Assembly: GCA_030655755.1 (NCBI GenBank)
Contig: JAUSOQ010000028.1
Location: forward strand, 62,001-126,000
Source of the DNA: Coriobacteriia bacterium
Lineage (GTDB): Bacteria > Actinomycetota > Coriobacteriia > Anaerosomatales > Anaerosomataceae
DNA length: 64,000 nucleotides
Direction: 5' to 3'
The notes under the pieces were generated by a model, which saw only the letters and a list, made by a program, of their open reading frames with translations, was not told the origin of the DNA and did no database searches. Below, piece after piece: positions 33,277 through 47,821 of the stretch. Made by a program: the position numbers and the translations under genes. The first letter of the stretch is position 1. Each line of letters opens with the position of its first letter.

Positions 33277-34047
33277 ATGAAGGCAGTCATACTTGCGGGC
33301 GGTCTCGGAACTCGGCTCTCCGAGGAGACCGATCTCAAGCCGAAACCAATGGCCGAGATCGGGGAGCATCCGATCCTGTGGCACATCCTGAAGCTCTACA
33401 GCCACTTCGGCGTGACTGACTTCGTGATTTGCGTGGGTTACAAGGGATACCAGATCAAGGAGTACTTCAACAACTACTGGCTCCATAACTGCGACGTGAC
33501 ATTCAACATGCGTACGCGTGCGACCGAGGTACACCAGGACGCCAGTGAGCCGTGGCGCGTCACGGTGGTCGATACCGGAGCCGAGACTCCAACAGGCGGT
33601 CGAATCAGGCAGATTCGCGATTACGTTGGTGACGAGACTTTTCTGCTCACCTACGGTGACGGTGTGGCCGACGTCGATGTTTCGGCCTCGATTGACTACC
33701 ATCGCCAACACGGCAAGCTCGCTACGGTCACAGCGGTGCAGCCGATCGGGCGCTTTGGCGCGATGGATCTTACGCGCGAACAGGCTGTTCTGTCGTTTCA
33801 AGAGAAGCCAAAGGGCGACGGCGGTTGGGTCAACGGGGGATTCTTTGTGCTCGAACCGGGCATCTTTGAGTATCTAGGGGACGGCGACACGATGTGGGAA
33901 CAGGCCCCTCTCGAGGAAATAGCCGCAGCCGGAGAACTCGTCGCCTACAAGCACACCGGCTTCTGGCAGCCCATGGACACACTGCGAGACAAGAGGCTTC
34001 TTGAGGAACTCTGGCGCTCTGGCGAGGCCCCCTGGAAGGTTTGGTAG
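33277..34047 (+). CDS. rfbF: Glucose-1-phosphate cytidylyltransferase
   Basis: This 256-residue enzyme makes CDP-glucose, the entry to CDP-3,6-dideoxyhexoses. It shows the family signature GGLGTRLSEETDLKPKPM, then GYKGYQIKEYFNNYW, LTYGDGVADV and NGGFFVLEP. The order rfbF-rfbG-rfbH follows exactly as in Salmonella and Yersinia O-antigen loci. The start ATG at 33277 has GGGAGG upstream. Confidence 0.95.
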   Translation: MKAVILAGGLGTRLSEETDLKPKPMAEIGEHPILWHILKLYSHFGVTDFVICVGYKGYQIKEYFNNYWLHNCDVTFNMRTRATEVHQDASEPWRVTVVDTGAETPTGGRIRQIRDYVGDETFLLTYGDGVADVDVSASIDYHRQHGKLATVTAVQPIGRFGAMDLTREQAVLSFQEKPKGDGGWVNGGFFVLEPGIFEYLGDGDTMWEQAPLEEIAAAGELVAYKHTGFWQPMDTLRDKRLLEELWRSGEAPWKVW

Positions 34048-34049
34048 CA

Positions 34050-35138
34050 GTGAGAGCCACTTTCGGCGAAGTCTTCTCTGGTCGGAGAGTTCTGCTCACG
34101 GGTCACACGGGCTTCAAGGGCTCGTGGCTCAGCCGCTGGCTGCTTGACCTGGGTGCCAACGTGATCGGCTATGCGCTCGAACCCGACACGACACCTTCGC
34201 TGTTTGCAGATCTGGAGCTGGGGCGCTCGATGGACAGCCGCATCGGCGACGTACGGGACGCCGAGAGGATCGCCGCGCTCGTGACGGATTTTCGCCCCGA
34301 GGTCGTGTTCCACCTGGCCGCGCAACCGCTCGTTCGAAGGAGCTACGCCGAGCCCAGCTACACCTTTGAGACCAACGTCATGGGCACTGTCAACGTGTTG
34401 GAGGCGGTGCGCGGGCGCGAGGACTGCCTGGCCGTGGTGAATGTGACCACGGACAAGGTGTACGCGAACCGCGAGACCGGGGAGCCATTCAACGAGGAGT
34501 TCCCGCTCGGGGGGCGCGATCCGTACAGCGCGAGCAAGGCTGCCTCGGAGATCGTGACGGCGTCGTACCGCGACTCGTTCTTCTCGGTGCAGAGGTCGGC
34601 GGCTGTGGCGACGGCACGCGCAGGCAACGTCATCGGAGGCGGCGACTGGGCGGAGGACCGGCTCGTTCCGGACTGCGTGCGGGCGCTGTTGAACGGCGCC
34701 GCGGTGATTGTGCGCAACCCGGCTTCGGTTCGCCCCTGGCAGCACGTTCTTGAGTCGTTGTCTGGCTATCTCCACTTGGCCTCGGCGCTGTTGTCTAACC
34801 GTTCGCTCGCCGGTCCGTTCAACTTCGGTCCCGACCCTGAGGCGGCGCGCACTGCTGGCGAGGTCGTCGAGCGGTTCGTCTCGGCATGGGATGAGGGCTC
34901 GTGGCATACGCCGGATCTTGGGGAACACCTCCACGAAGCGGCACAGCTCAGGCTCGACATCAGCAAGGCCGAGCAGGTCTTAGGCTGGCGCCCGGTATGG
35001 GGTTTTGACGAGACTGTCGAGAGGACAGCTGCGTGGTACCGCGCCTACAGCACAGGTGAGGACGCAGCCGGACTCGTGGAAGCAGATCTAGACGCCTACG
35101 TGGCCGCCGCTCGTGCGATGGCGGCACCGTGGGCATGA
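34050..35138 (+). CDS. rfbG: CDP-glucose 4,6-dehydratase
   Basis: A 362-residue SDR with [15 protein letters not shown] at the NAD loop, [21 protein letters not shown] and a YSASK tyrosine/lysine pair, all typical of RfbG. It converts CDP-glucose to CDP-4-keto-6-deoxyglucose. GTG 34050 is used, 2 nt after the rfbF stop; a TTG at 34041 is possible. The next gene, rfbH, uses its product. Confidence 0.94.
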
Positions 35139-35151
35139 TGGGAGAAGGTAC

Positions 35152-36492
35152 GTGACCGACACTGATCGTGCAGCGCAGATCAGGCGCCAGATTCTCGATC
35201 TGACTCGCGAATACTACACGGAGCAGTTTGCGGAGAAACCCGCATTCGTCCCCGGCGAGTCGCGCGTCGCGTATGGCGGACGTGTGTTTGACGAGCGCGA
35301 GATCGTGAACCTGGTCGACTCATCGCTTGAGTTTTGGCTGACCTATGGGCGGTATTCAGCGGTGTTCGAGAAGGGTCTCGCTGAGTATCTAGGTATCAAG
35401 CATGCGCTTCTGGTCAACTCGGGCTCGAGTGCGAATCTGCTCGCATTTGCTGCGCTCACGAGTGAGAAGCTCGGTGTGCGTAGAATCGTCCCTGGCGACG
35501 AGGTCATAACCGTGGCGGCAGGGTTCCCTACGACAATCGCGCCGATCGTGCAGCATGGAGCAGTGCCGGTCTTTGTCGATGTGGTGCTCGGCACATACAA
35601 CATTGACGTGAGCCAGCTTAAGGTGGCTGTGTCCCCGCGCACGAAGGCCGTCATGCTTGCGCACACGCTCGGCAACCCGTTCGAGGTACGGGCGGTTCGT
35701 GACTTCTGCGACGCGCACGGTCTGTGGCTCATTGAGGACAACTGCGACGCGCTTGGGTCGCGCTACGAGGGGAAGCTGACCGGCTCGTTTGGCGACATCG
35801 GCACTTCGAGCTTCTACCCGCCCCATCATATGACGATGGGCGAGGGCGGCGCGGTCTACACGAACGACGAGCTACTCGCCAAGGTCGCGCTCTCGATGCG
35901 TGACTGGGGACGTGACTGCTACTGCCCGTCGGGGCGCGACAACAGCTGCGGTAAGCGGTTCAGCCAGCAGCACGGCGCTCTGCCGTTTGGCTACGACCAC
36001 AAGTATGTCTACTCCGAGTTCGGCTTCAACCTGAAGGCGACCGACATGCAGGCCGCCATCGGTGTAGCGCAGCTCGAGAAGCTGCCCGAGTTCACTGAAG
36101 CCCGAAAACGCAATTGGGCGCAGCTTCGCGAGGCGCTCGGCCCGCTCGCGGACGTGCTCGTTCTGCCGGAGCCGACGCCGGGTTCAGATCCGTCGTGGTT
36201 CGGTTTCCTCATGACGGTGCGTGAGAACACCGGCGTCACCCGCGACGAACTGGTGCGAGCGCTTGAGGATGCGAAGGTGCAGACGCGTATGCTCTTTGCG
36301 GGCAACATGGTGCGACAGCCTGCGTTCGATGGGATGCGTGAGCGTAGCGATGGCTATCGAGTTGTGGGCGAACTGCCGAACACGGATCGCATCATGAGCA
36401 ACGCGTTCTGGATCGGGGTCTACCCGGGAATGACCGAGGAGATGCTCGCGTACATGACAGAGACGATCCTGCATGCGTTCGGGCGAGGGTAG
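35152..36492 (+). CDS. rfbH: CDP-4-keto-6-deoxyglucose 3-dehydrase (E1)
   Basis: The 446-residue protein is a PMP-dependent iron-sulfur enzyme. In place of the usual PLP lysine it has histidine ([15 protein letters not shown]), as E1 enzymes do, and the cysteines in [17 protein letters not shown] fit the 2Fe-2S site. With a reductase (E3, not found in this window) it removes the 3-hydroxyl to give CDP-4-keto-3,6-dideoxyglucose. GTG 35152 follows GGGAGAAGG. The next gene is a likely 4-ketoreductase. Confidence 0.94.
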
Positions 36493-36496
36493 CGCC

Positions 36497-37384
36497 GTGC
36501 GCGTTCTCATCACCGGCGGTTCGGGTTTCATCGGTCGTAATCTGGTCGAGTCGCTGCGAGAGCGACACGAGGTGCTCGCCCCAACTCACTCCGAGCTCGA
36601 ACTCACCGATCACGATGCGGTGCACTCATATCTCGCGGTCCACCGGCCAGAGGTCGTCGTTCATGGCGCAGTCAAGCCGGGACACCGGGCCGCGAAGGAT
36701 CGCTCCGGCATCGCGGAGTCCAACACGGCGATGTTCCACAACCTCGCGGACGATCCGGAGTTGTGCCCGCGCATGGTGTTCCTGAGCTCGGGTGCGGTAT
36801 ACGACGAGCGTCACTACCTGCCAAAAATGCGCGAAATCTACCTCGGCACACATGTCCCCACAGACCCGAACGGCTATGCGAAGTACCTAGCGGCGCGTTG
36901 GATCGAGTCAGCGGAGCACGTCGTGGAACTTAGGCCGTTCGGCGTGTACGGGTCATACGAAGACTACTCAATCCGCTTCATCAGCAACGCGATCTGCAAG
37001 GCTCTGCTCGGTCTGCCCATCACCTTACGGCAGGACCGGAGGTTCGATTACGTCTGGGTGGGTGACCTCGTCCGCATCGTCGAGTACTTCATAGATCGGT
37101 CGCGTGGTGAGCTTCGATACGGTGCCTACAACGTGACACCAGACGAGTCCGAGAACCTGACCGGCATTGCTCACATGGTGCTCGAGGTGACTGGTGTGGA
37201 CGTCCCCATCATCATCGCAATGTCCGGAGAAGGGGTCGAATACTCGGGTGATAACACGCGGTTGCGCGAGGAGATGCCAGGTTTGGAGCTGACGTCGCTA
37301 CGCTACAGTATCGAGATGCTCGTGTCGTGGTATGAGGCGCGGATTGACACACTGGATCGTTCAAAGTTACTAGTGGACGCGTAG
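36497..37384 (+). CDS. NAD-dependent epimerase/reductase, candidate CDP-paratose/abequose synthase
   Basis: A 295-residue SDR (LITGGSGFIGRNLVESL, SSGAVYD, LRPFGVYGSYEDY). Position after rfbH and the presence of a CDP-paratose epimerase gene suggest it reduces CDP-4-keto-3,6-dideoxyglucose. Oddly, where the family has tyrosine four residues before the catalytic lysine (DxYGxxK), this protein reads DPNGYAK: N125 stands in the tyrosine place and K129 is kept, while Y127 is two residues away. Either Y127 compensates or the enzyme is altered. The GTG at 36497 lies 4 nt after the rfbH stop. Confidence 0.7.
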   Translation: MRVLITGGSGFIGRNLVESLRERHEVLAPTHSELELTDHDAVHSYLAVHRPEVVVHGAVKPGHRAAKDRSGIAESNTAMFHNLADDPELCPRMVFLSSGAVYDERHYLPKMREIYLGTHVPTDPNGYAKYLAARWIESAEHVVELRPFGVYGSYEDYSIRFISNAICKALLGLPITLRQDRRFDYVWVGDLVRIVEYFIDRSRGELRYGAYNVTPDESENLTGIAHMVLEVTGVDVPIIIAMSGEGVEYSGDNTRLREEMPGLELTSLRYSIEMLVSWYEARIDTLDRSKLLVDA

Positions 37385-37392
37385 TAGGCTCT

Positions 37393-39036
37393 CTAGTTCA
37401 ATTGCATAACGTCGGTAGGCAACCAAGGCTGGAGTCCGCCGTCACGAGGCACGCATAGCAGCAGGTTACGCCATTGGTACACTGTGCATTCGGCGGCCAG
37501 TTGATTGATGAGTGCTGGCGGCATGAATGTCGTGTCGCCGCGGTAGAAGATCATTAGTCGGTAGTCGGCTTGGTAGAAGGCAGCTATTGCGGCGTCGGTA
37601 CGCGGAGCGCCCTGGGGATATGGCTGCCACCACAGTGGTAGACCGGGGGCGGCGCGAACGCCAAAGGCAGGATAGGCCCAGAGCAGGCGTGGGCCGAAGT
37701 ACACGGGGGCATCGAGCTGCCCTTCCCAGTCGTTGCCCTCCAGTACGGTGGCGAGTTCATCGGCGGCTGCGGTCATTGTTGGCCCCGCTTGAAGCCCACG
37801 CAGGAAGAGCGGGTCCTGAAATCGAGTCAGCGCGGAGTCCTCATAGAAACAGCCCGGACCCGCGCTACGGATGCGATGTCGGTCGACCGCGTATGTCACT
37901 CCGGCCGTTCCAAAGCAAACGAGCGACACGACCAGCAAGCTCGGCAGAAGCACGCGCTCGACCTGTCCTTGCACATATGGGCGGGTGAGCAGAATGATTC
38001 CTGTCACCGCCGTGAGGATCACAGGGACTTCGGCCATGTTGTGGTCGTTGTTCGTCCCCATCGCAACGAGTCCGGTTAGGACGCCAAGCGCGCAAAGCAT
38101 CACGGCTGGGGAGACCTTTCGTCGCGGTGCGCGCCGCGCGAGCACGACGAGCCCTCCCGCGAACGATGCTGCGGCGGGCAACAGCAGGCTCAGCGTGAGC
38201 CGCGCCTCGTCCGCGTCATTGAGCAGGAAGAACGTGCGGAAGTTACCGGCACTGAGGACTCGGGTTCCGCCGACCAGGTAGCTGCGGATCATGGCCGTGA
38301 CATCCACGCCTGCTAGCATCAGAAGGACAATCGACGAAGTCGCAGCACCAGCGATCAGGCATAACCCACGTCTGCGAAGTCGCGGCGTCATTGCTAGCAC
38401 AATTGCCGCTCCGACCAGCAGCAGACCTGCGCTGTTGGCTTTAGCCCATGAGAGAACGACAGCTGTGAGGACAAAGGCCACTTTAGCATCGCGGTCGTCT
38501 GGGTACTGGACGAAGTACAATGCTGCGGCCAAAAAGAGGGCTGCGCAGGCAGCCGTGAGCTGGTTCGACCACCAGAAGGATGCCGAGACCATGCTCACGG
38601 AGAGCACTACAGCAGGCAAGGCTAGCGAGAATGTCGTTCCTGCACGGAGTCTGAGTAGGATGGTGCAGAGGCCGGCATAAGCGAGTGCAGCGAATATGGC
38701 CGTGGCAGTGACGAGCGAAGACCACGCCACCCCGGACACGTCGAACGCCCATTTAGCGCCGAGCAGGAAGAGTGGCGGCATACCCTCTGCCGGGAGATCG
38801 ATGTAGGGTCTGGCTCCGACGTGAAGCTGCCAACCGGCCATGGAAACAATGCCGCCGTCCTCGGCAGGAAACTGGACCATACCGAGTGTAAGTACGACCA
38901 CGGCTATGGCGGCGGCAAGGATAAGCATCGCCGCGGCCGTGAATAACGGGTTCATGTAGTCGAGCTCGAAGATGGTCCTGGTCAGAGATTTTGGCGCAGC
39001 ATGCGTTCGCGAAGTGACCACCCTGGTGGGCTTCAC
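37393..39036 (-). CDS. Multi-pass membrane protein, putative GT-C glycosyltransferase
   Basis: The 547-residue protein has about 11-12 membrane helices and a soluble C-terminal region. After the first helix it has an acidic EDGG and a loop GARPYIDLPAEGMPPLFLL, the arrangement seen in lipid-linked-sugar GT-C glycosyltransferases. Exact family is not recognised. The start is set at GTG 39036 because it overlaps the stop of the upstream GT2 gene (GTGA), implying coupling with a dolichol-phosphate-mannose-synthase-like enzyme that could supply its lipid-linked donor. A longer in-frame start at 39198 would overlap that gene heavily. Confidence 0.6.
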   Translation of the reverse strand: MKPTRVVTSRTHAAPKSLTRTIFELDYMNPLFTAAAMLILAAAIAVVVLTLGMVQFPAEDGGIVSMAGWQLHVGARPYIDLPAEGMPPLFLLGAKWAFDVSGVAWSSLVTATAIFAALAYAGLCTILLRLRAGTTFSLALPAVVLSVSMVSASFWWSNQLTAACAALFLAAALYFVQYPDDRDAKVAFVLTAVVLSWAKANSAGLLLVGAAIVLAMTPRLRRRGLCLIAGAATSSIVLLMLAGVDVTAMIRSYLVGGTRVLSAGNFRTFFLLNDADEARLTLSLLLPAAASFAGGLVVLARRAPRRKVSPAVMLCALGVLTGLVAMGTNNDHNMAEVPVILTAVTGIILLTRPYVQGQVERVLLPSLLVVSLVCFGTAGVTYAVDRHRIRSAGPGCFYEDSALTRFQDPLFLRGLQAGPTMTAAADELATVLEGNDWEGQLDAPVYFGPRLLWAYPAFGVRAAPGLPLWWQPYPQGAPRTDAAIAAFYQADYRLMIFYRGDTTFMPPALINQLAAECTVYQWRNLLLCVPRDGGLQPWLPTDVMQLN

Positions 39037-39764
39037 GATCGCGTCCGCATTAGGTTGCGCTTGAGCATCCAGAGTCGTCCCATGGCCATGATGAACGCGA
39101 CGGTAAACACTGCCATGTTGCGCTTCGAGGACCCATGGCTGCGCTGGCGGAAGTGGAACGGGACCTCGAGCACCGAAGCGGCCACCCCGGGCGTCCACAA
39201 CAGTCGTGCGAGGATCTCCTCTTGTATGTCGAAGTGCATCGAGGTCAGTTCCAAGCGCCGAAGCTGGTCGCCGTGATAAAGGCGGAAGCTGTTCGAGATG
39301 TCGCGTACCGGCATTCGGAGAATGAGTGCGAAAACCGTGTTGAGCAGTTGGCTCAACAGCACCAGAAGGAACGGATTGTCCGTTGAACCGCCCTTGGTGT
39401 AACGGGAAGCGATTATGATGTCAGCCTGATTGCGCTGAACCCACAGTTCCCGTACAAACTCCGGATGGTGAGATCCATCGACGTCCATGATCAGGATTCG
39501 CGATCCCGTGGACTCTTCGATTCCTGTACGTATGGCATTGCCGTACTCGTCCCCTCCGCGACGCGGAACCCTGTGAGTCCCTGTCAATCGACACACCTCT
39601 GCGGTATCGTCTTTCGGCTTTTGGGTGTCGATGACGAGTATCTCGAAGTCCAGTGCCATCGTCGACAGGACGTCCGTCAAAGCGGGTACGAATTCTCGAA
39701 GGTTCTCCGCTTCTGCGTATGCCGGGAGAACCACCGAGAGATCGTGTCGTGTGTCAGCGGGCAT
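39033..39764 (-). CDS. Family 2 glycosyltransferase, polyprenyl-phosphate sugar synthase-like
   Basis: A 243-residue GT2 enzyme with SVVLPAYAEAENL at the N-terminus, MDVDGSHHPE as the metal-binding DxD-type region, and ASRYTKGG, resembling dolichol-phosphate mannosyltransferases. It likely makes polyprenyl-phosphate-linked sugar for the GT-C protein encoded by the overlapping next gene. There is no C-terminal membrane pair, unlike the GtrB-type gene at 46.4 kb. It follows rfbE by 5 nt in a four-gene minus-strand operon. Confidence 0.85.
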   Translation of the reverse strand: MPADTRHDLSVVLPAYAEAENLREFVPALTDVLSTMALDFEILVIDTQKPKDDTAEVCRLTGTHRVPRRGGDEYGNAIRTGIEESTGSRILIMDVDGSHHPEFVRELWVQRNQADIIIASRYTKGGSTDNPFLLVLLSQLLNTVFALILRMPVRDISNSFRLYHGDQLRRLELTSMHFDIQEEILARLLWTPGVAASVLEVPFHFRQRSHGSSKRNMAVFTVAFIMAMGRLWMLKRNLMRTRS

Positions 39765-39769
39765 GAAGA

Positions 39770-40804
39770 TTATTCTTCAAAACGCAGTTCTCGCACCCAT
39801 TCCAGCATAGCTGTGATGCCGGTTCGGGCATTGACGGTTGGTCGCCAGCCGAAGTCCTGTTCCGCGTTGGTTGTGTCTGCAACGAACACCTTCTGGTCAC
39901 CCGGGCGCCATGGTCCAGCGACGAATCTCAGTGTGTTGCCTGTCAAGTCCTCGAGCAATCGGAAGAGCTCGAGCAGAGAGAGGGCGTTCGAGGCGCCTCC
40001 GCCAATGTTGTATATGTGCCCGGCGACAGCATCCGGGTGTTCCACGGCGGCGAAATACGCTGCAACCAAGTCGGAACCATGGAGGGCATCGCGCACCTGC
40101 TTGCCGTTCCCACTGATGGTGAAGGGTGGGGCGCTGGGGTCGCCCATCTCCAAGGCCTTCATGCAGAACCAGCCGATCCAGCCTTGATCGTATGTAGCAT
40201 ACTGGCGTCCTCCATACATCGAGGAGTGCCGGAAGACTGTAGTGCGCAGTCCATACATACGGTGGTAGTCCCGAACGTACTGGTCTGCAGCCAACTTCGA
40301 GCAACCGTACGGGGAGTAGCCGTCTATTTGTAGTGACTCATCGAGGCCGTTCGGATACGCGGGCAACTCGTAGTGGGTGTCGCGTTCGACGGCATCGATG
40401 TTTTCGAGCGAGCCATACACCTTATTGGTCGAGGAGTAGAGGAAGACGGTCTCCGGTGCACCGAGGCGGACGGCCTCAAGCATATTGAACGTGCCCCTCG
40501 CGTTTGTCTCGAAGTCCAGGCGTGGGTCAGCCAAGCTCGTCGTCATCGCGACCTGTCCCGCGAGATGAGCGACCACGCCAGGGCGCTCAAAGGCGACAAT
40601 ATGGGCGGTAGCATCCGCATCACATACGTCGACGTCAGCGAAGCGCCAGCTCTCGCCATAGCGAGAGCGCAGCCAGGCCAGGTTCTCTGAAGAGCCTATC
40701 CGGCTTAAATTGTCCACAAGGACGACTTCGTCACCGCGCCCCAGTAGCGCGTCTGCCAAGTTGCTGCCGATGAAGCCACACCCACCGGTAATCAGCCACT
40801 TCAC
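39770..40804 (-). CDS. rfbE: CDP-paratose 2-epimerase
   Basis: This 344-residue SDR has ITGGCGFIGSNLADAL, SSTNKVYGSLE, SPYGCSKLAADQYV, FRHSSMYGGRQYATYDQGW and FTISGNGKQVRDALH, close to RfbE, which converts CDP-paratose to CDP-tyvelose. Its presence with rfbFGH suggests tyvelose, or another 3,6-dideoxyhexose, in the polymer. GTG 40804 gives the family N-terminus (KWLITGG); a TTG at 40819 would overlap the previous gene's stop. Confidence 0.88.
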   Translation of the reverse strand: MKWLITGGCGFIGSNLADALLGRGDEVVLVDNLSRIGSSENLAWLRSRYGESWRFADVDVCDADATAHIVAFERPGVVAHLAGQVAMTTSLADPRLDFETNARGTFNMLEAVRLGAPETVFLYSSTNKVYGSLENIDAVERDTHYELPAYPNGLDESLQIDGYSPYGCSKLAADQYVRDYHRMYGLRTTVFRHSSMYGGRQYATYDQGWIGWFCMKALEMGDPSAPPFTISGNGKQVRDALHGSDLVAAYFAAVEHPDAVAGHIYNIGGGASNALSLLELFRLLEDLTGNTLRFVAGPWRPGDQKVFVADTTNAEQDFGWRPTVNARTGITAMLEWVRELRFEE

Positions 40805-40808
40805 TCGA

Positions 40809-41807
40809 TTACGTCCCAACAGCGTGCACCTCCGTTGGTATGTTCTGACGATACCAAGCTACTGTTTCGCGCAGGCCATCGCGGAGTTGCCAGCGAGGTT
40901 CCCACCCGATGGGTGCCGTAGAGAGAGCAGCGCTTGCGACCTGCGGGCACTGGACGGCTGCGGAATCGGTCGAATCGAAGACAGGGTGGCCAGTGCTTCC
41001 CACGATGTGGGCCAACTCGGCTACCACGTCAGCCAGCTTGATGCCGACTCCGGTTCCAATCTCAACGACTTGTCCTACACATTTGGAATCCTGCACGGCA
41101 TACAGCAGACCGCGTACGAGGTCGGTGACGTAGATGAGGTCGCAGATGCGGTTGCCGTTTCGAATCACGGGATTCCTGCCTGCGAGCAACTCGCAGATTG
41201 TGTACGGAATGATCTTCTGAGGTTGTTGCCCAGGGCCGTAGCTCATGAACGGCCTGGCAACGACGACTGGGAGCGCGAATAGCGATGCGAACATTCGTGA
41301 GTAAGAGGTGGCAGCAAGCTTTGAGGCCGCGTAGGGAGAGATTGGTGCACTCGCCTCTTCAGCTATTTCCTCAGAGGAACCCATTGTGACGACACGAGTG
41401 CAGTCGGTCTCGGCGAGGGCCAAGAGAAGATTTACCGTGCCGAGTACATTCGTCTCGAGCGTTTCTCGGACTAGACGCAACTCGCGAGAAGTGTCGACGA
41501 CACCCGCGAGATGAAAGACGAAATCAGGTCGAGTCAAGCGGATGGCGCGCGCGACAGCGTCAGAATCGCGCAAGTCTGCGCGAATCGCTCGGCCAGCGTT
41601 GGGCTCCGCCGAACAGTCCAGAGTGGTCACGTCGGCTCCGAGTAGCGCAAGCGCAGCGGCTACGTGCCCGCCGACGAACCCAGCGGATCCTGTCAGAAGC
41701 ACCGATCGGTCGGCAAACGTATCGTGGAACTCGTCGCGCCAGACGTAGGTCGCGGGGACCGGGTCCGATATTCCCGCATCTCCTGTGTTCATCTTGCTGC
41801 TCGGCAT
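40809..41807 (-). CDS. NAD-dependent sugar epimerase/dehydratase of unknown substrate
   Basis: A 332-residue extended SDR: VLLTGSAGFVGGHVAAAL, LAGVVDTSREL, TMGSSEEIAE, YAASKLAA (Tyr and Lys present) and ARPFMSYGPGQ. It resembles UDP-glucose-4-epimerase-like and GDP-6-deoxy-4-ketohexose reductase (Rmd-like) enzymes, but nothing fixes the substrate. It heads the minus-strand operon with rfbE, a GT2 and a GT-C gene, and has a strong GGGGGAG ribosome site. It could supply the missing reductase for either the GDP- or the CDP-sugar branch. Confidence 0.7.
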   Translation of the reverse strand: MPSSKMNTGDAGISDPVPATYVWRDEFHDTFADRSVLLTGSAGFVGGHVAAALALLGADVTTLDCSAEPNAGRAIRADLRDSDAVARAIRLTRPDFVFHLAGVVDTSRELRLVRETLETNVLGTVNLLLALAETDCTRVVTMGSSEEIAEEASAPISPYAASKLAATSYSRMFASLFALPVVVARPFMSYGPGQQPQKIIPYTICELLAGRNPVIRNGNRICDLIYVTDLVRGLLYAVQDSKCVGQVVEIGTGVGIKLADVVAELAHIVGSTGHPVFDSTDSAAVQCPQVASAALSTAPIGWEPRWQLRDGLRETVAWYRQNIPTEVHAVGT

Positions 41808-41910: not shown

Positions 41911-43737
41911 GTGACGAAAGTTTCAGACTACCTCGCTCGCCGCGTGGCCGAACTCGGGGTCACCCATGTCTTTATGGTGGTCGGCGGGGGAGCGATGCAC
42001 CTCGACGATTCATTCGGCGGCCGAGACGATCTTGCGTACGTGTGTTGTCATCATGAGCAAGCGTGCGCAATCGCAGTCGAGGGCTACGCCCGGGTTCGCG
42101 GGGCGATTGGCTGTGCCGTGGTCACGACCGGGCCGGGCGGTACCAACACGATCACCGGCGTGCTGGGACAGTGGCATGACTCGGTACCGGCGCTCTACCT
42201 TTCGGGACAGGTGCGTTACGACACTACGGTCGCTTCTACCGGTCTGCCGCTGCGGCAGTTAGGTGATCAGGAAGCCGATATCGTCACGATCGTCTCATCA
42301 ATCACCAAATATGCGGTGATGGTCACCGACCCGCAGACCATCCGCTACCACTTCGATCGCGCTGTGCACCTCGCGACCTCTGGTCGACCTGGGCCGGTGT
42401 GGCTCGACATACCGCTTAACGTGCAGGCGGCGTGCATCGACCCAGACGCTCTTGCACCGTACGACCCCGCCGAGGACGCCTCGGTGGCCGGCGAGGGCTT
42501 CGACCGCGATCGGGTGCGTGCGCAGATCGATGAGGTCGTCGCGCATCTCAAGACCGCCGAGCGCCCCGTCGTGCTTGCCGGCAGCGGCATTCGCACGGCG
42601 GACGCGCACGATGCATTCCTGGCGCTCGCAGAGCGGCTCGGCGTTCCGGTTGCCACAGCATGGAACGCGCACGACCTACTGTGGGAGGATCACCCGCTGT
42701 ATGCTGGCCGTCCTTCGACCATAGGCGACCGCGCGGGCAACTTCGCAGTGCAAAGCAGCGACCTGCTCATCGTGCTCGGCTGCCGTATGAACATCAGACA
42801 AGTTGGCTACAACTTCGACTCGTTCGCGCGCGCCGCGTATCAGGTGGTTGTCGACATAGACCCCGTCGAGCTTGAGAAGCCCACTATCTGCCCCGATTTG
42901 TCCGTCCACTCAGATGTGGGCTTTTTCATCGACACCTTGATGGAGCGGCTGGACGGCATCGATTTGCCTGACCGTTCTTGGTGGGTCGACTGGTGTCTCG
43001 AGCGCCGCCGTCGCTACCCGGTGTGTCTGTCCGCGTACCGCGAGCGTGGCGAGCCGGTGAACCCGTACGTCTTTGTTGACACCCTCTCGGACCACCTTGT
43101 CGAGGGGGATGTCGTAATCACCGCCAATGGTGCCGCCTGTGTCGTGGCCTTCCAGGCTCTCAAGCTCAAGCGCAACCAACGGCTCATCGGCAACTCCGGA
43201 ACAGCGTCAATGGGTTACGATGTGCCAGCGTCAGTCGGGGCGGCGGTTGCACGTGATGGCCAGCGCGTCGTGTGCTTGGCTGGCGAGGGCTCGATCCAGA
43301 TGAACCTTCAGGAGTTCGAGACGATCGCGTTCAACCAGTTCCCGGTCAAGGTCTTTGTCTTTGAGAACGGCGGCTATCTGTCGATCCGTCAGACGCAGGA
43401 CAACTTGTTCGGTGGACACTACGTGGGCGAGGCGCCGCGCTCGGGCGTGGGCTTCCCCGACATGGTCAGGATTGCGGAGGCGTATGGCATTCCGGCGCGC
43501 CGTGTGGCGAGCCACGTCGACCTCGATGAGACGATTGCCTGGGCATTGTCGCTCGAGGGGCCGGTGCTTGTGGACGTGATGATGGATTCCGAGCAGAACT
43601 TCGCGCCGAAGTCGCAGGCTCAGAAGCTGCCCGACGGCACACTGGTGTCAAAACCGCTCGAGGACTTATGGCCGTTTCTGCCAGCCGAGGAAGTGCGCGA
43701 CAACCTGCTCATTCCCGAATGGGATGGGTCGCGGTAA
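41911..43737 (+). CDS. Thiamine-diphosphate-dependent enzyme (acetolactate-synthase-like)
   Basis: This 608-residue protein has the three-domain layout of IlvB/YerE/IolD-like enzymes. The N-terminal domain has the catalytic glutamate in CCHHEQACAIAVEGYAR and GPGGTNT; the C-terminal ThDP/Mg domain has GEGSIQMNLQE and FENGGY, where most relatives have GDG. It is divergent from the regulatory-subunit-bearing IlvB, and no ilvN or ilvC is near. It heads a cassette with an aldolase, an SDR and a dehydroquinate-synthase-like cyclase, inside the sugar locus. Making or cleaving a C-C bond of a sugar precursor is inferred; YerE, which adds a two-carbon branch to a CDP-sugar, is a precedent. Confidence 0.78.
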   Translation: MTKVSDYLARRVAELGVTHVFMVVGGGAMHLDDSFGGRDDLAYVCCHHEQACAIAVEGYARVRGAIGCAVVTTGPGGTNTITGVLGQWHDSVPALYLSGQVRYDTTVASTGLPLRQLGDQEADIVTIVSSITKYAVMVTDPQTIRYHFDRAVHLATSGRPGPVWLDIPLNVQAACIDPDALAPYDPAEDASVAGEGFDRDRVRAQIDEVVAHLKTAERPVVLAGSGIRTADAHDAFLALAERLGVPVATAWNAHDLLWEDHPLYAGRPSTIGDRAGNFAVQSSDLLIVLGCRMNIRQVGYNFDSFARAAYQVVVDIDPVELEKPTICPDLSVHSDVGFFIDTLMERLDGIDLPDRSWWVDWCLERRRRYPVCLSAYRERGEPVNPYVFVDTLSDHLVEGDVVITANGAACVVAFQALKLKRNQRLIGNSGTASMGYDVPASVGAAVARDGQRVVCLAGEGSIQMNLQEFETIAFNQFPVKVFVFENGGYLSIRQTQDNLFGGHYVGEAPRSGVGFPDMVRIAEAYGIPARRVASHVDLDETIAWALSLEGPVLVDVMMDSEQNFAPKSQAQKLPDGTLVSKPLEDLWPFLPAEEVRDNLLIPEWDGSR

Positions 43738-43805
43738 AATCAGCTAATCAGCCCGACGTGGTCGTGGCGGGCGACCTCGGACAGCCAAAAAAAAGGGGGC
43801 ACTCC

Positions 43806-44627
43806 GTGAATTCACTTGAGCGCAAGATGGTCGAGGTTCTCATCGACTTGCGTGAGAACCATTCTGTGAACGGTGTGAAGGCTGAGTTTGAGGCGGAGGG
43901 TACTCGTCTCGAGGAGGCCATGCGCCTGAAGGAAGTTGTCTCGGCGGCGGGTATCGGCCTCACCATCAAGATCGGTGGCTGCGAGGCGCTTCGTGACATG
44001 TACGAGTGCCGCGTTCTCGGTGTCGCCCGCATCGTCGCGCCGATGATCGAGTCTGCGTACGCCATGCACAAGTACATCGGTGCCGTGAAACTCGCCTTCC
44101 CAGAGGAAGAGCGCTCGACGACCGACTTCGCAATCAATGTGGAGACTCTCTCGGGTTTCAAGGTGTTTGACGACATGCTGGCGCTGCCGGATGCCGAGTA
44201 CCTCGATGGTATCGTTCTGGGCCGCGTTGACCTGACAGGCTCGATGGGGCTATCGCGTAATGACATCAACAGCAGCAAAGAGGTCATGGACATCTGCCGC
44301 ACCCTGTTCACCAAGGCCAAGGCCGCCGGTCTCGAGACCGCACTGGGCGGTGGCGTTTCCGCCGAGACGATTCCGTTCATCCACGAGGTCGGCGCCGACC
44401 TTGTGGACCGTTTCGAGACCCGTAAGGTCATCTTCTGCTGCCAGAACGGTCTGCCCGCCTCCGATGCCGACAAGGGCATCCTGAAGGCGGTCGGCTTCGA
44501 GCTTATGTGGCTGAAGAACAAGCGCGACTTCTACAGCTCGATCGCCACCGAGGACGCGACGCGTCTGGAAATGCTCCAGTCGCGCTACGACAAGCTGATC
44601 ATGGCCGCTGGAGGCATGTACGAGTGA
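43806..44627 (+). CDS. HpcH/HpaI-type aldolase/citrate-lyase-family protein
   Basis: The 273 residues form the TIM-barrel family of class II pyruvate aldolases. Metal ligands appear as the Glu in INVETLSGF and the Asp in LGRVDLTGSMGL, matching the VETxxxxxx and GPADL positions of HpcH. The N-terminal part (SLERKMVEVLIDLREN) is not typical of HpcH, and no annotated substrate is clear. GTG 43806 follows an AAAAGGGGG ribosome site. It overlaps the SDR gene by 4 nt, so it belongs to the cassette 41911-46368. Confidence 0.75.
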   Translation: MNSLERKMVEVLIDLRENHSVNGVKAEFEAEGTRLEEAMRLKEVVSAAGIGLTIKIGGCEALRDMYECRVLGVARIVAPMIESAYAMHKYIGAVKLAFPEEERSTTDFAINVETLSGFKVFDDMLALPDAEYLDGIVLGRVDLTGSMGLSRNDINSSKEVMDICRTLFTKAKAAGLETALGGGVSAETIPFIHEVGADLVDRFETRKVIFCCQNGLPASDADKGILKAVGFELMWLKNKRDFYSSIATEDATRLEMLQSRYDKLIMAAGGMYE

Positions 44628-45292
44628 GCGGACGAACGGCGCTCGTAACCGGTGCTTCGCGCGGAATCGGGCGCTCCATCGTTGATGCTTTGGAGTCTGC
44701 TGGGATTACGGTGCTCGCGCCGACACGGGCGCAACTCGACCTTTCGTCTGACGGCTCGGTTGACGCGTTCCTTGCGTCGCTTACGGGACGCGTGGATGTA
44801 CTCGTGAACAACGCGGGAATCAACCCGCTAGCAACCGCGCTGGAGGTCTCAGACGACGACATCGAGACCACGTTGCGCGTGAACCTCATTAGTCCAATGC
44901 GGCTGTGCCGCGCGATCGGTGCAGGCATGGCTCAGCGCGGCTGGGGCCGCATCGTCAACATCTCATCGATCTGGGGCACGGTGAGCAAGCCAGGGCGTTT
45001 TGCCTATAGCGTCTCGAAATCCGGAATCAATGGTATGACACGGTCCTTGGCGGTCGAACTGGGGTCTCGGGGTGTCCTGGTGAATGCGGTCGCCCCGGGA
45101 TTCGTGGCGACCGACCTCACTCGGCAGAACAACACACCCGCACAAATCGCTGAGATCGCTGCCGGGCTTCCCCTTCGCAGACTCGCTGAGCCCGAGGAGA
45201 TCGCTGCGGTTGTGTTGTTCCTCGCCAGCGAGGCGAACACCTTCGTGACCGGTCAGGTCATTCTGGCCGACGGGGGTTACTCATGCCTGTAG
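44624..45292 (+). CDS. Short-chain dehydrogenase (FabG-like) of the cassette
   Basis: A 222-residue classical SDR: cofactor loop TGASRGIG, VNNAGIN, SSIWG, catalytic YSVSK and the C-terminal VTGQVILADGGYS. It resembles 3-oxoacyl-ACP reductases but is short and lies inside the sugar cassette. It overlaps the aldolase stop (GTGA) and the downstream cyclase by 10 nt, so its dose is tied to them. The likely role is reduction or oxidation of a keto intermediate; substrate unknown. Confidence 0.8.
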   Translation: MSGRTALVTGASRGIGRSIVDALESAGITVLAPTRAQLDLSSDGSVDAFLASLTGRVDVLVNNAGINPLATALEVSDDDIETTLRVNLISPMRLCRAIGAGMAQRGWGRIVNISSIWGTVSKPGRFAYSVSKSGINGMTRSLAVELGSRGVLVNAVAPGFVATDLTRQNNTPAQIAEIAAGLPLRRLAEPEEIAAVVLFLASEANTFVTGQVILADGGYSCL

Positions 45293-46368
45293 AGACGATG
45301 CGGCTTCACTCCAACGTTCGCGACTACACTGTGTCGCTCCAATCGGATGCGGAATTCATCGGTCGACTTGTCGAGATGCCCAACCGTGTGTTCGTGATTG
45401 ACGAGAATGTGTGGGCATCCCATCGCCAAGGCGTACTCGCCGCAGTCCCCGAGAGCGATGTCCTAGTTCTCCCCATCGCCGAGGGGTTCAAGACGCTGGC
45501 TTCTGTCGAGGAGGTTTGGGACCGGCTGCTCGAGCGCTCGGCTCGGCGCAACATGACGCTAGTGTCAATTGGTGGTGGCATCTGCCAAGACGTCACGGGG
45601 TTTGCCGCATCGACACTATACCGAGGTATCGGCTGGATATTCCTGCCGACGACCCTCCTGGCACAGGCTGACAGCTGCATCGGATCCAAGACATCGCTCA
45701 ACTATCGCCGCTTCAAGAACCTCCTGGGTACGTTCTTCCCGCCGAATGAAGTCCATATTCTCGCGTCGTTCCTCACCACTCAGGACGCGGCCGACTACTT
45801 CAGCGGCGTGGGTGAAGTGGTCAAGCTGCACATCATGGGTGGGCATGAGTCAGCGACGGGGCTGGTGGCTCGCTTCGGTGACGTTCGAGCACGGGACATG
45901 GCGATCATGCAAGAGGTGATCCGGGACTCGTTGCTTATCAAGCAGAACTACATCGCGGGCGACGAGTTCGATACAGGGCGCCGCAACATGCTCAACTACG
46001 GGCACTGCTTCGGACATGCGGTCGAGACCGCATCGGACTTTGCCGTTCCGCACGGCCAGGCGGTAGTCCTGGGAATGATCATGGCACAACGTCTCGCTAG
46101 GACTCGCGGTCTCGAGACCGATGCCGGCCAGAAGGCTCTGCTCGACCATCTCTTCCGTGAGGCGCTCTTGGTCGAGCGCATTCCTCGCGACATCGACATC
46201 GACGGTGTCATTGAGGCGATGAAGCACGACAAGAAGCGTACGGGGGAGGGGCTCGTCGTGGTCATGGCCGCCGATGGGCTCGAAATGGTGAAGCACGATG
46301 ACGTTTCGGTCAACGAGGCCCATTGCGCCGCGACAGAGACTCTCCGCAATCTGCTCGGGAGGAACTGA
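45283..46368 (+). CDS. Dehydroquinate-synthase-like sugar phosphate cyclase
   Basis: A 361-residue member of the AroB/EEVS/DOIS fold. NAD-binding GGGICQDVTGF differs from AroB's usual GGGxxGDxxGF; LPTTLLAQADSCIGSKTSLN is close to the family but Gly is replaced twice; KNLLGTFFPP and LNYGHCFGHAVE retain the zinc histidines, with the third ligand in SGVGEVVKL. The signature set is nearer to non-shikimate cyclases than to AroB. It probably closes a keto-sugar phosphate into a carbocycle. It ends at the ATG of the following GT2 gene (one-base overlap). Confidence 0.75.
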   Translation: MPVETMRLHSNVRDYTVSLQSDAEFIGRLVEMPNRVFVIDENVWASHRQGVLAAVPESDVLVLPIAEGFKTLASVEEVWDRLLERSARRNMTLVSIGGGICQDVTGFAASTLYRGIGWIFLPTTLLAQADSCIGSKTSLNYRRFKNLLGTFFPPNEVHILASFLTTQDAADYFSGVGEVVKLHIMGGHESATGLVARFGDVRARDMAIMQEVIRDSLLIKQNYIAGDEFDTGRRNMLNYGHCFGHAVETASDFAVPHGQAVVLGMIMAQRLARTRGLETDAGQKALLDHLFREALLVERIPRDIDIDGVIEAMKHDKKRTGEGLVVVMAADGLEMVKHDDVSVNEAHCAATETLRNLLGRN

Positions 46369-47312
46369 TGGGGGCTGTGTCGCGCAAGCTCATATCGATC
46401 GTTATTCCCCTCTACAACGAAGAGGGGAACGTTGACGAACTCGCGCGCCGCCTCCAAGCGGTCTTTGCCGAGAATCTGGGGTATGACTTCGAAGTAATCG
46501 CGGTCGAGAACGGTTGCGAAGACTCCACGCTTGAGAAGCTGCTCGCCGTGCGCAAGGACGATTCGCGCTTCAAGATCCTCCAACTTGCCCGCAACTTCCG
46601 CATGGACGGCGGCCTGACTGCAGGGCTACAGCACGCAGCGGGCGATGCGGCTGTGCTGATGACCGCCGACCTGCAGGACCCGCCGGAACTTATCACCCGG
46701 TTCATCGAGAAGTGGGAAGATGGTTTCGACAGCGTCGCCATGATTGTGACGAAGCGCGAGGGTACTGGGCTACTGCGCCGCTTCAATTCCCAGCTCTTCT
46801 ACTGGTTGATCAACGTGATGACGGGTGGCAACTTCCCAAGAAACGTCAGCGACTTCCGTCTCGTCGATCGCAAGGTCTATCAGGTCATCAACTCCATGAA
46901 CGAGCGGAACCGGTTCGTGCGGGGCATGTTCTTCTGGGCCGGCTTCAAGTCGACCGGCATCGAGCATCCACGTCCGCCGCGCTTTGCCGGTGAGTCGAAG
47001 GCCGACACGCTCAAGGTCATCGAACTCGCTCTCAAGGGCATACTCTCGTTCTCGGTCTTCCCGCTGCGAATCATCACCTGGACTGGTGTCACGGTTTCCG
47101 TTGTGGCGTTCATGCTGCTGGTCTACGAAGTGGTGAAGGCAATCTTCTTTGGGGTGCCCTTTGCCGGATTCGGATCGATCATGAGCGTCATGCTGCTGAT
47201 GTTCGGCTTCCTCTTCGTGATGCTCGGCGTTGTGGCTGAGTACATCGGACTCATCTACGAAGAGGTCAAGCAGCGCCCCAACTTCGTCGTCCGGGAGAAG
47301 ATCGGCCTGTGA
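46368..47312 (+). CDS. GtrB/ArnC-like polyprenyl-phosphate glycosyltransferase
   Basis: A 314-residue GT2 protein: ISIVIPLYNEEGNVDELA, MTADLQDPPELI (DxD region), FRLVDRKVYQ, and two C-terminal membrane helices with EYIGLIYEEVKQRP, typical of GtrB/ArnC/DPM1 enzymes that put a sugar on undecaprenyl phosphate. The GtrA-type flippase gene overlaps its stop by 4 nt. Direct coupling to the unusual cassette upstream suggests the cassette product may be its sugar or that both serve the same side branch. Confidence 0.9.
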   Translation: MGAVSRKLISIVIPLYNEEGNVDELARRLQAVFAENLGYDFEVIAVENGCEDSTLEKLLAVRKDDSRFKILQLARNFRMDGGLTAGLQHAAGDAAVLMTADLQDPPELITRFIEKWEDGFDSVAMIVTKREGTGLLRRFNSQLFYWLINVMTGGNFPRNVSDFRLVDRKVYQVINSMNERNRFVRGMFFWAGFKSTGIEHPRPPRFAGESKADTLKVIELALKGILSFSVFPLRIITWTGVTVSVVAFMLLVYEVVKAIFFGVPFAGFGSIMSVMLLMFGFLFVMLGVVAEYIGLIYEEVKQRPNFVVREKIGL

Positions 47313-47821
47313 GGTCTCTCACCGAGAAGCTGCTGGGCGCGTACGACAATCATGCAGAGAAGCTACGCTACCTGGCGGTGGGCGTTGTCAATACCGCGTT
47401 CAGCTACGGGCTGTTTTGGGTCTCGATTCGCTTTCTTGCCGGACCACTCGAGAGTTCGACTAGCTTCGACTCGAAGGTTGTCGCGATTGGGCTACAGTGG
47501 GCCGTTTGGATCGTGGCGGTGGTGTGGAGCACGACTACGATGAAGTACCTGGTCTTCCGATCGGCAGGGTCTCTCGGATCCCAGATTCCGCGCGCCTACT
47601 TCGTGTACCTACCGGCGCAAGGACTGTCGTCGCTCATTCTCTTCGTAGCGATGCAGTTCCTCGGACTCGGTGCCCTCGTCGGCCAGCTACTGGCAATCTT
47701 CATCACGACCATCTTCAGCTACTTCGGTCACAAATACTTCACGTTCCGAGTCCCATTGGAGGTGGGCGAGGTGCCGGAGGAGAACCTCCTCAGTCCGAAG
47801 ATGCCGCGCGGCTCCAGGTGA
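47309..47821 (+). CDS. GtrA-family membrane protein
   Basis: The 170 residues contain four membrane helices in the GtrA pattern (LRYLAVGVVNTAFSYGLFW, TTTMKYLVFR, FGHKYFTF). GtrA proteins flip polyprenyl-phosphate-linked sugars made by GtrB partners across the membrane for side-chain glycosylation. GTG 47309 overlaps the GtrB stop. The following membrane protein starts 38 nt later and could be the matching transferase that uses the flipped sugar. Confidence 0.88.
   Translation: MRSLTEKLLGAYDNHAEKLRYLAVGVVNTAFSYGLFWVSIRFLAGPLESSTSFDSKVVAIGLQWAVWIVAVVWSTTTMKYLVFRSAGSLGSQIPRAYFVYLPAQGLSSLILFVAMQFLGLGALVGQLLAIFITTIFSYFGHKYFTFRVPLEVGEVPEENLLSPKMPRGSR

Follow-up and report, generated by a model that had tools for sequence, protein, structure and literature searches.

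YerE adds acetaldehyde derived from pyruvate to CDP-4-keto-3,6-dideoxyglucose, and ErwE uses longer 4-hydroxy-2-oxo acids as donors with the same acceptor (PMC12247030). Gastriose, a C4-branched sugar of Mycobacterium gastri, is made via the YerE-like enzyme MygE, and MMAR_2332 is the thiamine diphosphate (ThDP) enzyme of caryophyllose (PMC12247030). The latter is a C12 sugar in which C4 bears a hydroxylated chain of six carbons (PMC7821131), namely 3,6-dideoxy-4-C-[D-altro-1,3,4,5-tetrahydroxyhexyl]-D-xylo-hexopyranose (PMC5706390). It is made by Mycobacterium marinum, in which mutants in MMAR_2331, MMAR_2332 and MMAR_2333 lack it and accumulate the LOS-II precursor (LOS, lipooligosaccharide) (PMC5706390). 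We describe here a related locus in a stretch of 64,000 nucleotides (hereafter the window; contig JAUSOQ010000028.1, positions 62,001 to 126,000) from a Coriobacteriia bacterium. The locus comprises a cassette of four genes, encoding a ThDP enzyme (TPP), an aldolase (ALD), a short-chain dehydrogenase (SDR) and an AroB-like cyclase (CYC), which occupy positions 41911-46368 of the + strand in that order. We propose that the cassette is of the caryophyllose type, its product being probably caryophyllose or a close stereochemical or oxidation variant. No gene-level description of the caryophyllose route was found in searchable papers, and a complete, testable assignment is offered here. Coordinates without a locus label refer to the window, and L-numbers to loci on other genomes or contigs.

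The cassette and its counterpart in Mycobacterium marinum

The cassette and the two genes that follow it are listed below.

41911..43737, + strand: TPP, predicted YerE/ErwE-like ThDP carboligase joining a 2-keto acid, on decarboxylation, to a 4-keto sugar (8rph, 431 bits, versus 238 for the best acetolactate synthase; TIGR00118 below cut-off)
43806..44627, + strand: ALD, member of the HpcH/HpaI-type class II pyruvate aldolases, in a subfamily of its own (PF03328, 30.3 bits; predicted structure; conserved E113/D142)
44624..45292, + strand: SDR, classical short-chain dehydrogenase adjoining CYC, putatively reducing the ketone that CYC leaves (family match, neighbourhood)
45283..46368, + strand: CYC, AroB-like sugar-phosphate phospholyase related to TIGR04425, putatively eliminating the terminal phosphate (TIGR04425, 380 bits; 14 dehydroquinate synthase positions)
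46368..47312, + strand: GtrB-type polyprenyl-phosphate glycosyltransferase (59% identity to the GtrB beside the M. marinum ThDP gene, presumably MMAR_2333)
47309..47821, + strand: GtrA-type membrane protein, flippase partner (PF04138, 41.8 bits)

The genes lie in the order and place given by the original prediction, which was made from the DNA letters, and the overlaps were also as it had claimed: 4 nt between ALD and SDR, 10 nt between SDR and CYC, and one base between CYC and GtrB (ATG at 46368). The TPP gene has no overlap and ends about 70 nt ahead of ALD, whose best start is the GTG at 43806, after a purine-rich stretch, and not 43668.

The same four genes were found in locus L152. The genome behind it encodes an arylamine N-acetyltransferase that is identical at 278 of 280 residues to PDB 2vfb, the M. 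marinum enzyme, and we therefore regard this genome as M. marinum. The gene order is RfbF-GtrB-TPP-ALD-SDR-CYC-FGGY kinase, with RfbH-RfbG divergent, and SDR and CYC again overlap by 10 nt. Because the genome contains a single YerE-like enzyme at the stringency used, its TPP should be MMAR_2332; hence, by adjacency, the glycosyltransferase MMAR_2333 would be GtrB, and ALD would be MMAR_2331, which lies on the opposite side. The proposed pathway would thus account for the two corresponding mutants, with MMAR_2331 as the aldolase and MMAR_2333 as GtrB.

The M. marinum LOS locus (MMAR_2331-2333 region) therefore shares with the window the TPP-ALD-SDR-CYC order, the 10-nt overlap, RfbF, RfbG and RfbH, and a GtrB with 59% identity, while CYC and TPP are only about 37% identical and the polymer type differs. 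The window has in addition a candidate YerF-like reductase and a CDP-tyvelose-epimerase-like gene. This match bears on several earlier claims. The statement that the four enzymes come together in no CDP-sugar route described so far agreed with the searchable literature, but the M. marinum locus carries all four. Attachment of the sugar through polyprenyl phosphate by GtrB and GtrA is probably right, in view of the similarity of GtrB to its counterpart next to the caryophyllose genes of M. marinum. As for the product, a branched, chain-extended sugar of the yersiniose kind is supported by the presence of RfbF, RfbG and RfbH, by the YerE-like TPP and by the M. marinum match; a carbocycle, also suggested, no longer stands as the default, since the M. 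marinum set of these four genes goes with an open-chain branch ending in CH3.

Yersiniose A and erwiniose, made with YerE and ErwE, resemble the window system in the CDP-4-keto-3,6-dideoxyglucose acceptor and the YerE-like ThDP enzyme, but the searchable literature describes no AroB-like enzyme for either; this comparison is by description. Bradyrhizose, which the original prediction had named for comparison, and caryose, with bicyclic or C4-linked frameworks, were likewise compared by description. We dropped this link, since no gene list was found in the papers and since AroB chemistry would put a CH2 at ring positions that are hydroxylated in these sugars.

Properties of the cassette enzymes

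TPP contains all three domains of ThDP enzymes. The closest solved structure is 8rph, which we take, in line with a reference in PMC12247030, to be the YerE-like enzyme JanthE, and the next is an acetolactate synthase; TPP is thus nearer to the YerE-like enzymes (431 versus 238 bits). With the TIGR00118 model TPP scored 346.5, against a cut-off of 538.35, and so does not qualify as an acetolactate synthase. The GDG of the cofactor motif is GEG in the window TPP and in 13 other sequences (45 scanned). By these sequence criteria, TPP is predicted to be a YerE/ErwE-like carboligase acting on a ketone acceptor.

ALD matched PF03328 weakly (gathering threshold 25). Its predicted structure (pLDDT 87.8) best matched HpaI aldolases and pyruvate kinase barrels, and Glu113 and Asp142, aligned with the HpaI metal ligands, are present in all 53 sequences that could be scored. 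The score, the predicted barrel fold and the metal ligands all assign ALD to the HpcH/HpaI type, with a predicted pyruvate aldolase activity.

CYC has both domains of dehydroquinate synthase (DHQS). It scored 380.4 bits with TIGR04425 (cut-off 400) and 255.7 with aroB (cut-off 305). Each of the 45 cassette-type CYCs retains all 14 catalytic and substrate-binding positions (numbered as in Aspergillus DHQS), including Lys250 and Arg264, which in DHQS hold the substrate carboxylate. Retention of the full site with this carboxylate clamp is what a substrate resembling 3-deoxy-D-arabino-heptulosonate 7-phosphate (DAHP), an acid, would predict. CYC nevertheless differs from AroB and the sugar phosphate cyclases, with which it shares the fold domains and the catalytic positions. 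It lies outside the AroB clade and below the aroB equivalog cut-off; the branch that separates the cassette CYCs from AroB has a support of 100/99. Furthermore, Gln102 is found in 45/45 cassette CYCs and in 6/6 relatives accompanied by SDR only, where AroB has Gly or Thr; SDR is an obligate partner; and the M. marinum product contains no ring. An EEVS-type cyclase (2-epi-5-epi-valiolone synthase) acting on sedoheptulose 7-phosphate was ruled out by the absence of the diagnostic residues.

The best curated model for CYC is thus TIGR04425 (AroB-related putative sugar phosphate phospholyase (cyclizing)), whose name presumes cyclisation and whose cut-off the window CYC does not reach. A relative in L074, in the same clade, does pass it (446.7 bits). 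L074-L079 contain SDR+CYC pairs without a ThDP enzyme or ALD, several of which adjoin genes that we named by eye, from the starts of their sequences, as 2-hydroxyacid dehydrogenase-like, CMP-Kdo-synthetase-like, Gfo/Idh and GmhA-like. Possibly these loci encode a pathway to a terminally deoxygenated CMP-ulosonate.

We also checked that these enzymes are not the housekeeping copies. The same genome contains a separate AroB (G000:C21) and a separate IlvB (G000:C45), the latter scoring 823.6 bits, above the cut-off, versus 346 for the cassette TPP. CYC as the only AroB of the organism and TPP as its only acetolactate synthase, which together would have spoken against a dedicated system, are thereby ruled out. 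Furthermore, none of 60 related genomes carried the cassette cyclase, the best matches reaching at most 212 bits, in the AroB range, compared with 576 for the window CYC. The cassette is therefore patchy in its distribution and was presumably moved by horizontal exchange.

Proposed pathway

Four genes lying upstream of the cassette complete the scheme. The first three, 5-8 kb upstream, all score above curated cut-offs.

33277..34047, + strand: RfbF, glucose-1-phosphate cytidylyltransferase, first step to CDP-4-keto-3,6-dideoxyglucose (TIGR02623, 426 bits, cut-off 300)
34041..35138, + strand: RfbG, CDP-glucose 4,6-dehydratase (TIGR02622, 461 bits, cut-off 278)
35113..36492, + strand: RfbH, CDP-4-keto-6-deoxyglucose 3-dehydratase (E1) (NF011936, 725 bits, cut-off 423)
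36473..37384, + strand: extended-SDR reductase of 303 aa, candidate YerF-like branch-ketone reductase (Pfam Epimerase, 100 bits)

From what is known of their families, RfbF, RfbG and RfbH would provide CDP-4-keto-3,6-dideoxyglucose. ALD would condense pyruvate with a tetrose phosphate, in the simplest case erythrose 4-phosphate, to form a 3-deoxy-2-heptulosonate 7-phosphate, which would be DAHP or its C4 epimer. DAHP is the natural substrate of AroB, which oxidises it, eliminates the phosphate, re-reduces the product and opens it to a C7 enolate. We infer that CYC would carry out the same oxidation, elimination and re-reduction, but that the enolate would be protonated without formation of a ring, leaving a ketone on C6 and a methyl group on C7. 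Ring closure on C2 is not expected at this stage, as it would destroy the free 2-keto acid on which the ThDP step depends. The SDR, as the presumed partner of CYC, would reduce the C6 ketone. TPP would then decarboxylate the 2-keto acid and transfer the resulting acyl group, of six carbons, to the CDP-sugar at C4, a step for which MMAR_2332 and ErwE provide support in the literature. The remaining ketone of the branch would be reduced by the 303-aa reductase, yielding, as we suppose, caryophyllose itself. Finally, as is usual for these families, GtrB would load the sugar on polyprenyl phosphate and GtrA would flip it, for addition as a side group on the outside.

The structure of caryophyllose fits this scheme. 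Its branch, CHOH-CH2-CHOH-CHOH-CHOH-CH3, corresponds to a C7 2-keto-3-deoxy acid that has lost CO2 and whose last carbon is a methyl, in other words to the DAHP skeleton with the phosphate-bearing carbon deoxygenated; the carbon number, both deoxy positions and the configuration of C4' agree with erythrose 4-phosphate as precursor. D-altro over positions 1, 3, 4 and 5 reads left, right, right, right, so that C4'/C5' is D-erythro, as erythrose 4-phosphate gives at C4'. C4' is the only centre of erythrose 4-phosphate that survives, and the centre formed in the aldol reaction matches 4-epi-DAHP.

If correct, this scheme would assign a role, that of a phosphate-removing deoxygenase, to the AroB-like family TIGR04425, which has had none; to our knowledge the dehydroquinate synthase mechanism has not been described in such a use before. 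The claim that the system is undescribed has to be narrowed. In the literature searched the sugar class is known, but the gene-by-gene route, the modular logic, the carriage by phages and this use of an AroB homologue seem to be undescribed.

Recurrence of the cassette and exchange of its modules

A scan of 84,980 species genomes with the cyclase yielded 13 loci with 47-55% identity, after which identity fell to less than 40%. The hosts belong to Chlorobiota, Thermodesulfobacteriota (Geobacter), Pseudomonadota (Sulfuriferula, Nitrosospira/Nitrosovibrio and one alphaproteobacterium), Chloroflexota, Wirthbacteria, Elusimicrobiota and Actinomycetota (Thermoleophilia), and some of them are cultured environmental isolates. 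SDR was directly upstream of CYC in all 13 loci, with the 10-nt overlap in 11 of them. ALD was present in 11, the other two having a different C-C-forming enzyme in its slot, and the ThDP gene in 10, two of the three lacking it being contigs of 3-5 kb. RfbH and the 303-aa reductase were found in many of these loci, RfbH adjoined the cassette in 34 loci of a separate count, and the 4-nt overlap of ALD and SDR recurred in L004, L007, L008, L009, L011, L012 and L015. The association of these genes is far beyond chance. The original prediction had made its case depend on the four families occurring together in other genomes; this they do, across several phyla, with the same SDR in the 13 loci, as well as in M. 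marinum and in viral contigs.

The two replacements of ALD are an HMGL-type enzyme in L005 (Geobacter sp. AOG1) and a NeuB-type enzyme in L010, in genomes without ALD anywhere. All three families, ALD, HMGL and NeuB, couple a carbonyl compound with pyruvate, phosphoenolpyruvate or a similar donor. Since they share this chemistry, we infer that the product of this slot would be a 2-keto-3-deoxy (4-hydroxy-2-oxo) acid.

Exchange was also apparent in Mycobacterium, where RfbG, RfbH, RfbF, GtrB (54-60% identity to that of the window) and TPP recur with interchangeable modules: ALD+SDR+CYC (L148, L149, L152), NeuB with a HAD phosphatase (L143-L147), NeuB (L151, L154), ALD (L150) or SDR+CYC (L153). 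ALD and HAD occur together in L126 and L127. HAD and CYC were never found in the same locus among those examined, though independent cases are few. We read HAD on the one hand and CYC+SDR on the other as alternative means of removing the terminal phosphate, leaving CH2OH and CH3, respectively. The C7 branch of gastriose corresponds to 3-deoxy-D-manno-octulosonate (KDO) minus CO2, and the five RfbFGH-GtrB-NeuB-TPP-HAD loci, which have NeuB and HAD in place of the ALD, SDR and CYC of the window, fit this branch; that their genomes belong to the kansasii/gastri group is a guess. Such swappable modules (ALD, NeuB or HMGL, followed by HAD or CYC+SDR) would allow the structure of the branch to be predicted from sequence. 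A gene for an FGGY-family sugar kinase directly follows CYC in the Mycobacterium loci with SDR+CYC, namely L152 (4896-6173, - strand), L148, L149 and L153.

An ALD profile matched 37 IMG/VR contigs. In about 28 of these, with RfbH or within a fragment, ALD, SDR, CYC, TPP and usually the reductase lie in a single run, and in most viral loci a homologue of the 36473-37384 reductase comes directly after the ThDP gene. The large terminase subunit was detected in 8 of 26 viral records tested, six of them with the full set of genes (L084, L087, L088, L097, L104, L106) on contigs of up to 328 kb; in L084 a phage sliding clamp is close by. The search of viral contigs with a cyclase profile gave no confirmed match. 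Among 50,697 records of isolated phages we found no ALD and only AroB- and IlvB-like matches. The branched-sugar pathway thus seems to be common in uncultured phages and absent from isolated ones.

Alternative interpretations

Several observations weigh against the caryophyllose-type pathway. No AroB homologue is known to us to act without ring closure. The M. marinum CYC, with 37% identity, is a deep branch relative to that of the window, so that the window enzyme could differ, and the identification of MMAR_2331 and MMAR_2333 depends on adjacency to the single YerE-like gene. The FGGY kinase that follows CYC in the M. marinum operon was not found at the window; its presence means that the phosphorylated substrate in M. 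marinum may not be erythrose 4-phosphate. SDR+CYC pairs occur without TPP or ALD in L074-L079, and L106 and L110 have a second C-C-forming enzyme besides ALD, which the simple scheme does not explain. Alternatively, CYC might act after the ThDP step and close a ring like its relatives, cyclising the acyl branch on C4 of the CDP-sugar as DAHP is cyclised to give a 3,6-dideoxyhexose with a polyhydroxycyclohexyl branch, the ring ketone of which SDR would reduce; this corresponds to the carbocycle of the original prediction. This order agrees with the chemistry of all four enzymes, with the retention of the full DHQS site and with the cyclising activity of every characterised CYC relative known to us. 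We consider it unlikely all the same: the same cassette goes with an open-chain, CH3-ended branch in M. marinum (PMC5706390), the replacement of SDR+CYC by a HAD phosphatase elsewhere suggests phosphate removal and not ring making, and the clamp formed by K250 and R264 is kept although such a substrate would lack the carboxylate. We similarly doubt that, in phages and in the window's own lineage, CYC forms a ring on the branch to give a C4-polyhydroxycyclohexyl CDP-3,6-dideoxyhexose, a new class of sugar, with phages carrying the pathway to redecorate glycans of the host or the virion.

The loci with only part of the cassette could also mean that there are two products in the same glycan, a branched sugar made by ALD, TPP and RfbFGH, and a cyclitol, a quinate-like acid or a terminally deoxygenated ulosonate made separately by SDR and CYC. 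ALD and TPP are indeed found without CYC in nine viral loci (L081, L082, L086, L091, L108, L110, L111, L113, L114), and the SDR+CYC pairs of L074-L079 lie beside CMP-transferase-like and GmhA-like genes. Yet in the bacterial cassettes a CYC of this clade is accompanied by ALD (or its substitute) and by TPP as far as the contigs reach, and the SDR gene shares a few bases with ALD at one end and with CYC at the other. Moreover, no other member of the cassette offers the deoxygenation required for the methyl group at the end of the caryophyllose branch. All of this makes such a division of labour rather improbable. Finally, since YerE uses pyruvate (PMC12247030) and TPP is YerE-like, TPP might simply add acetyl from pyruvate, as for yersiniose, the other genes being accessory or decayed. 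This appears very improbable to us, as it would leave unexplained the near-constant presence of ALD as a neighbour and its replacement by NeuB or HMGL, and as the metal-ligand positions of ALD are invariant. The caryophyllose-type pathway thus remains the one that we favour.

Other observations on related loci and on the window

In plasmid records, cyclase matches did not exceed 38% identity, and ALD matched three records. One is a plasmid of Ilyobacter polytropus, in which a distant ALD homologue (37%; L118 12001-12774) lies between aconitase and PrpF-type genes; this catabolic-looking operon suggests a catabolic relative.

Among viral loci, L106 (10001-15539) combines ALD with a NeuB-like enzyme (55% identity to the NeuB-type enzyme of L010), TPP, SDR and CYC, its CYC forming a very long branch. 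In L110-L114 a 4Fe-4S ferredoxin-type protein follows ALD in place of SDR+CYC; L110, the one tested, also has a small phosphoheptose-isomerase-like protein in this place, as well as another HpcH aldolase, nearer to the canonical type, which is encoded between TPP and ALD. A protein of 131-133 aa belonging to no known Pfam family is encoded between ALD and TPP in L091 (9016-9411) and L108 (10883-11284).

In the window, the nearest solved structures to the 36473-37384 reductase are of the dTDP-4-dehydrorhamnose-reductase type. Between this gene and the cassette, the - strand carries a tyvelose-epimerase-like gene, another epimerase and glycosyltransferases.

39770..40819, - strand: CDP-tyvelose/paratose 2-epimerase-like, accessory (1orr, 376 bits; 9rl0, 416 bits)

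Together with a neighbouring glycosyltransferase (39033-40819 for the pair, - strand), this gene is found again next to the cassette in L005, L012 and L014. It may serve to make a C2 epimer of the sugar, or a separate tyvelose-type residue.

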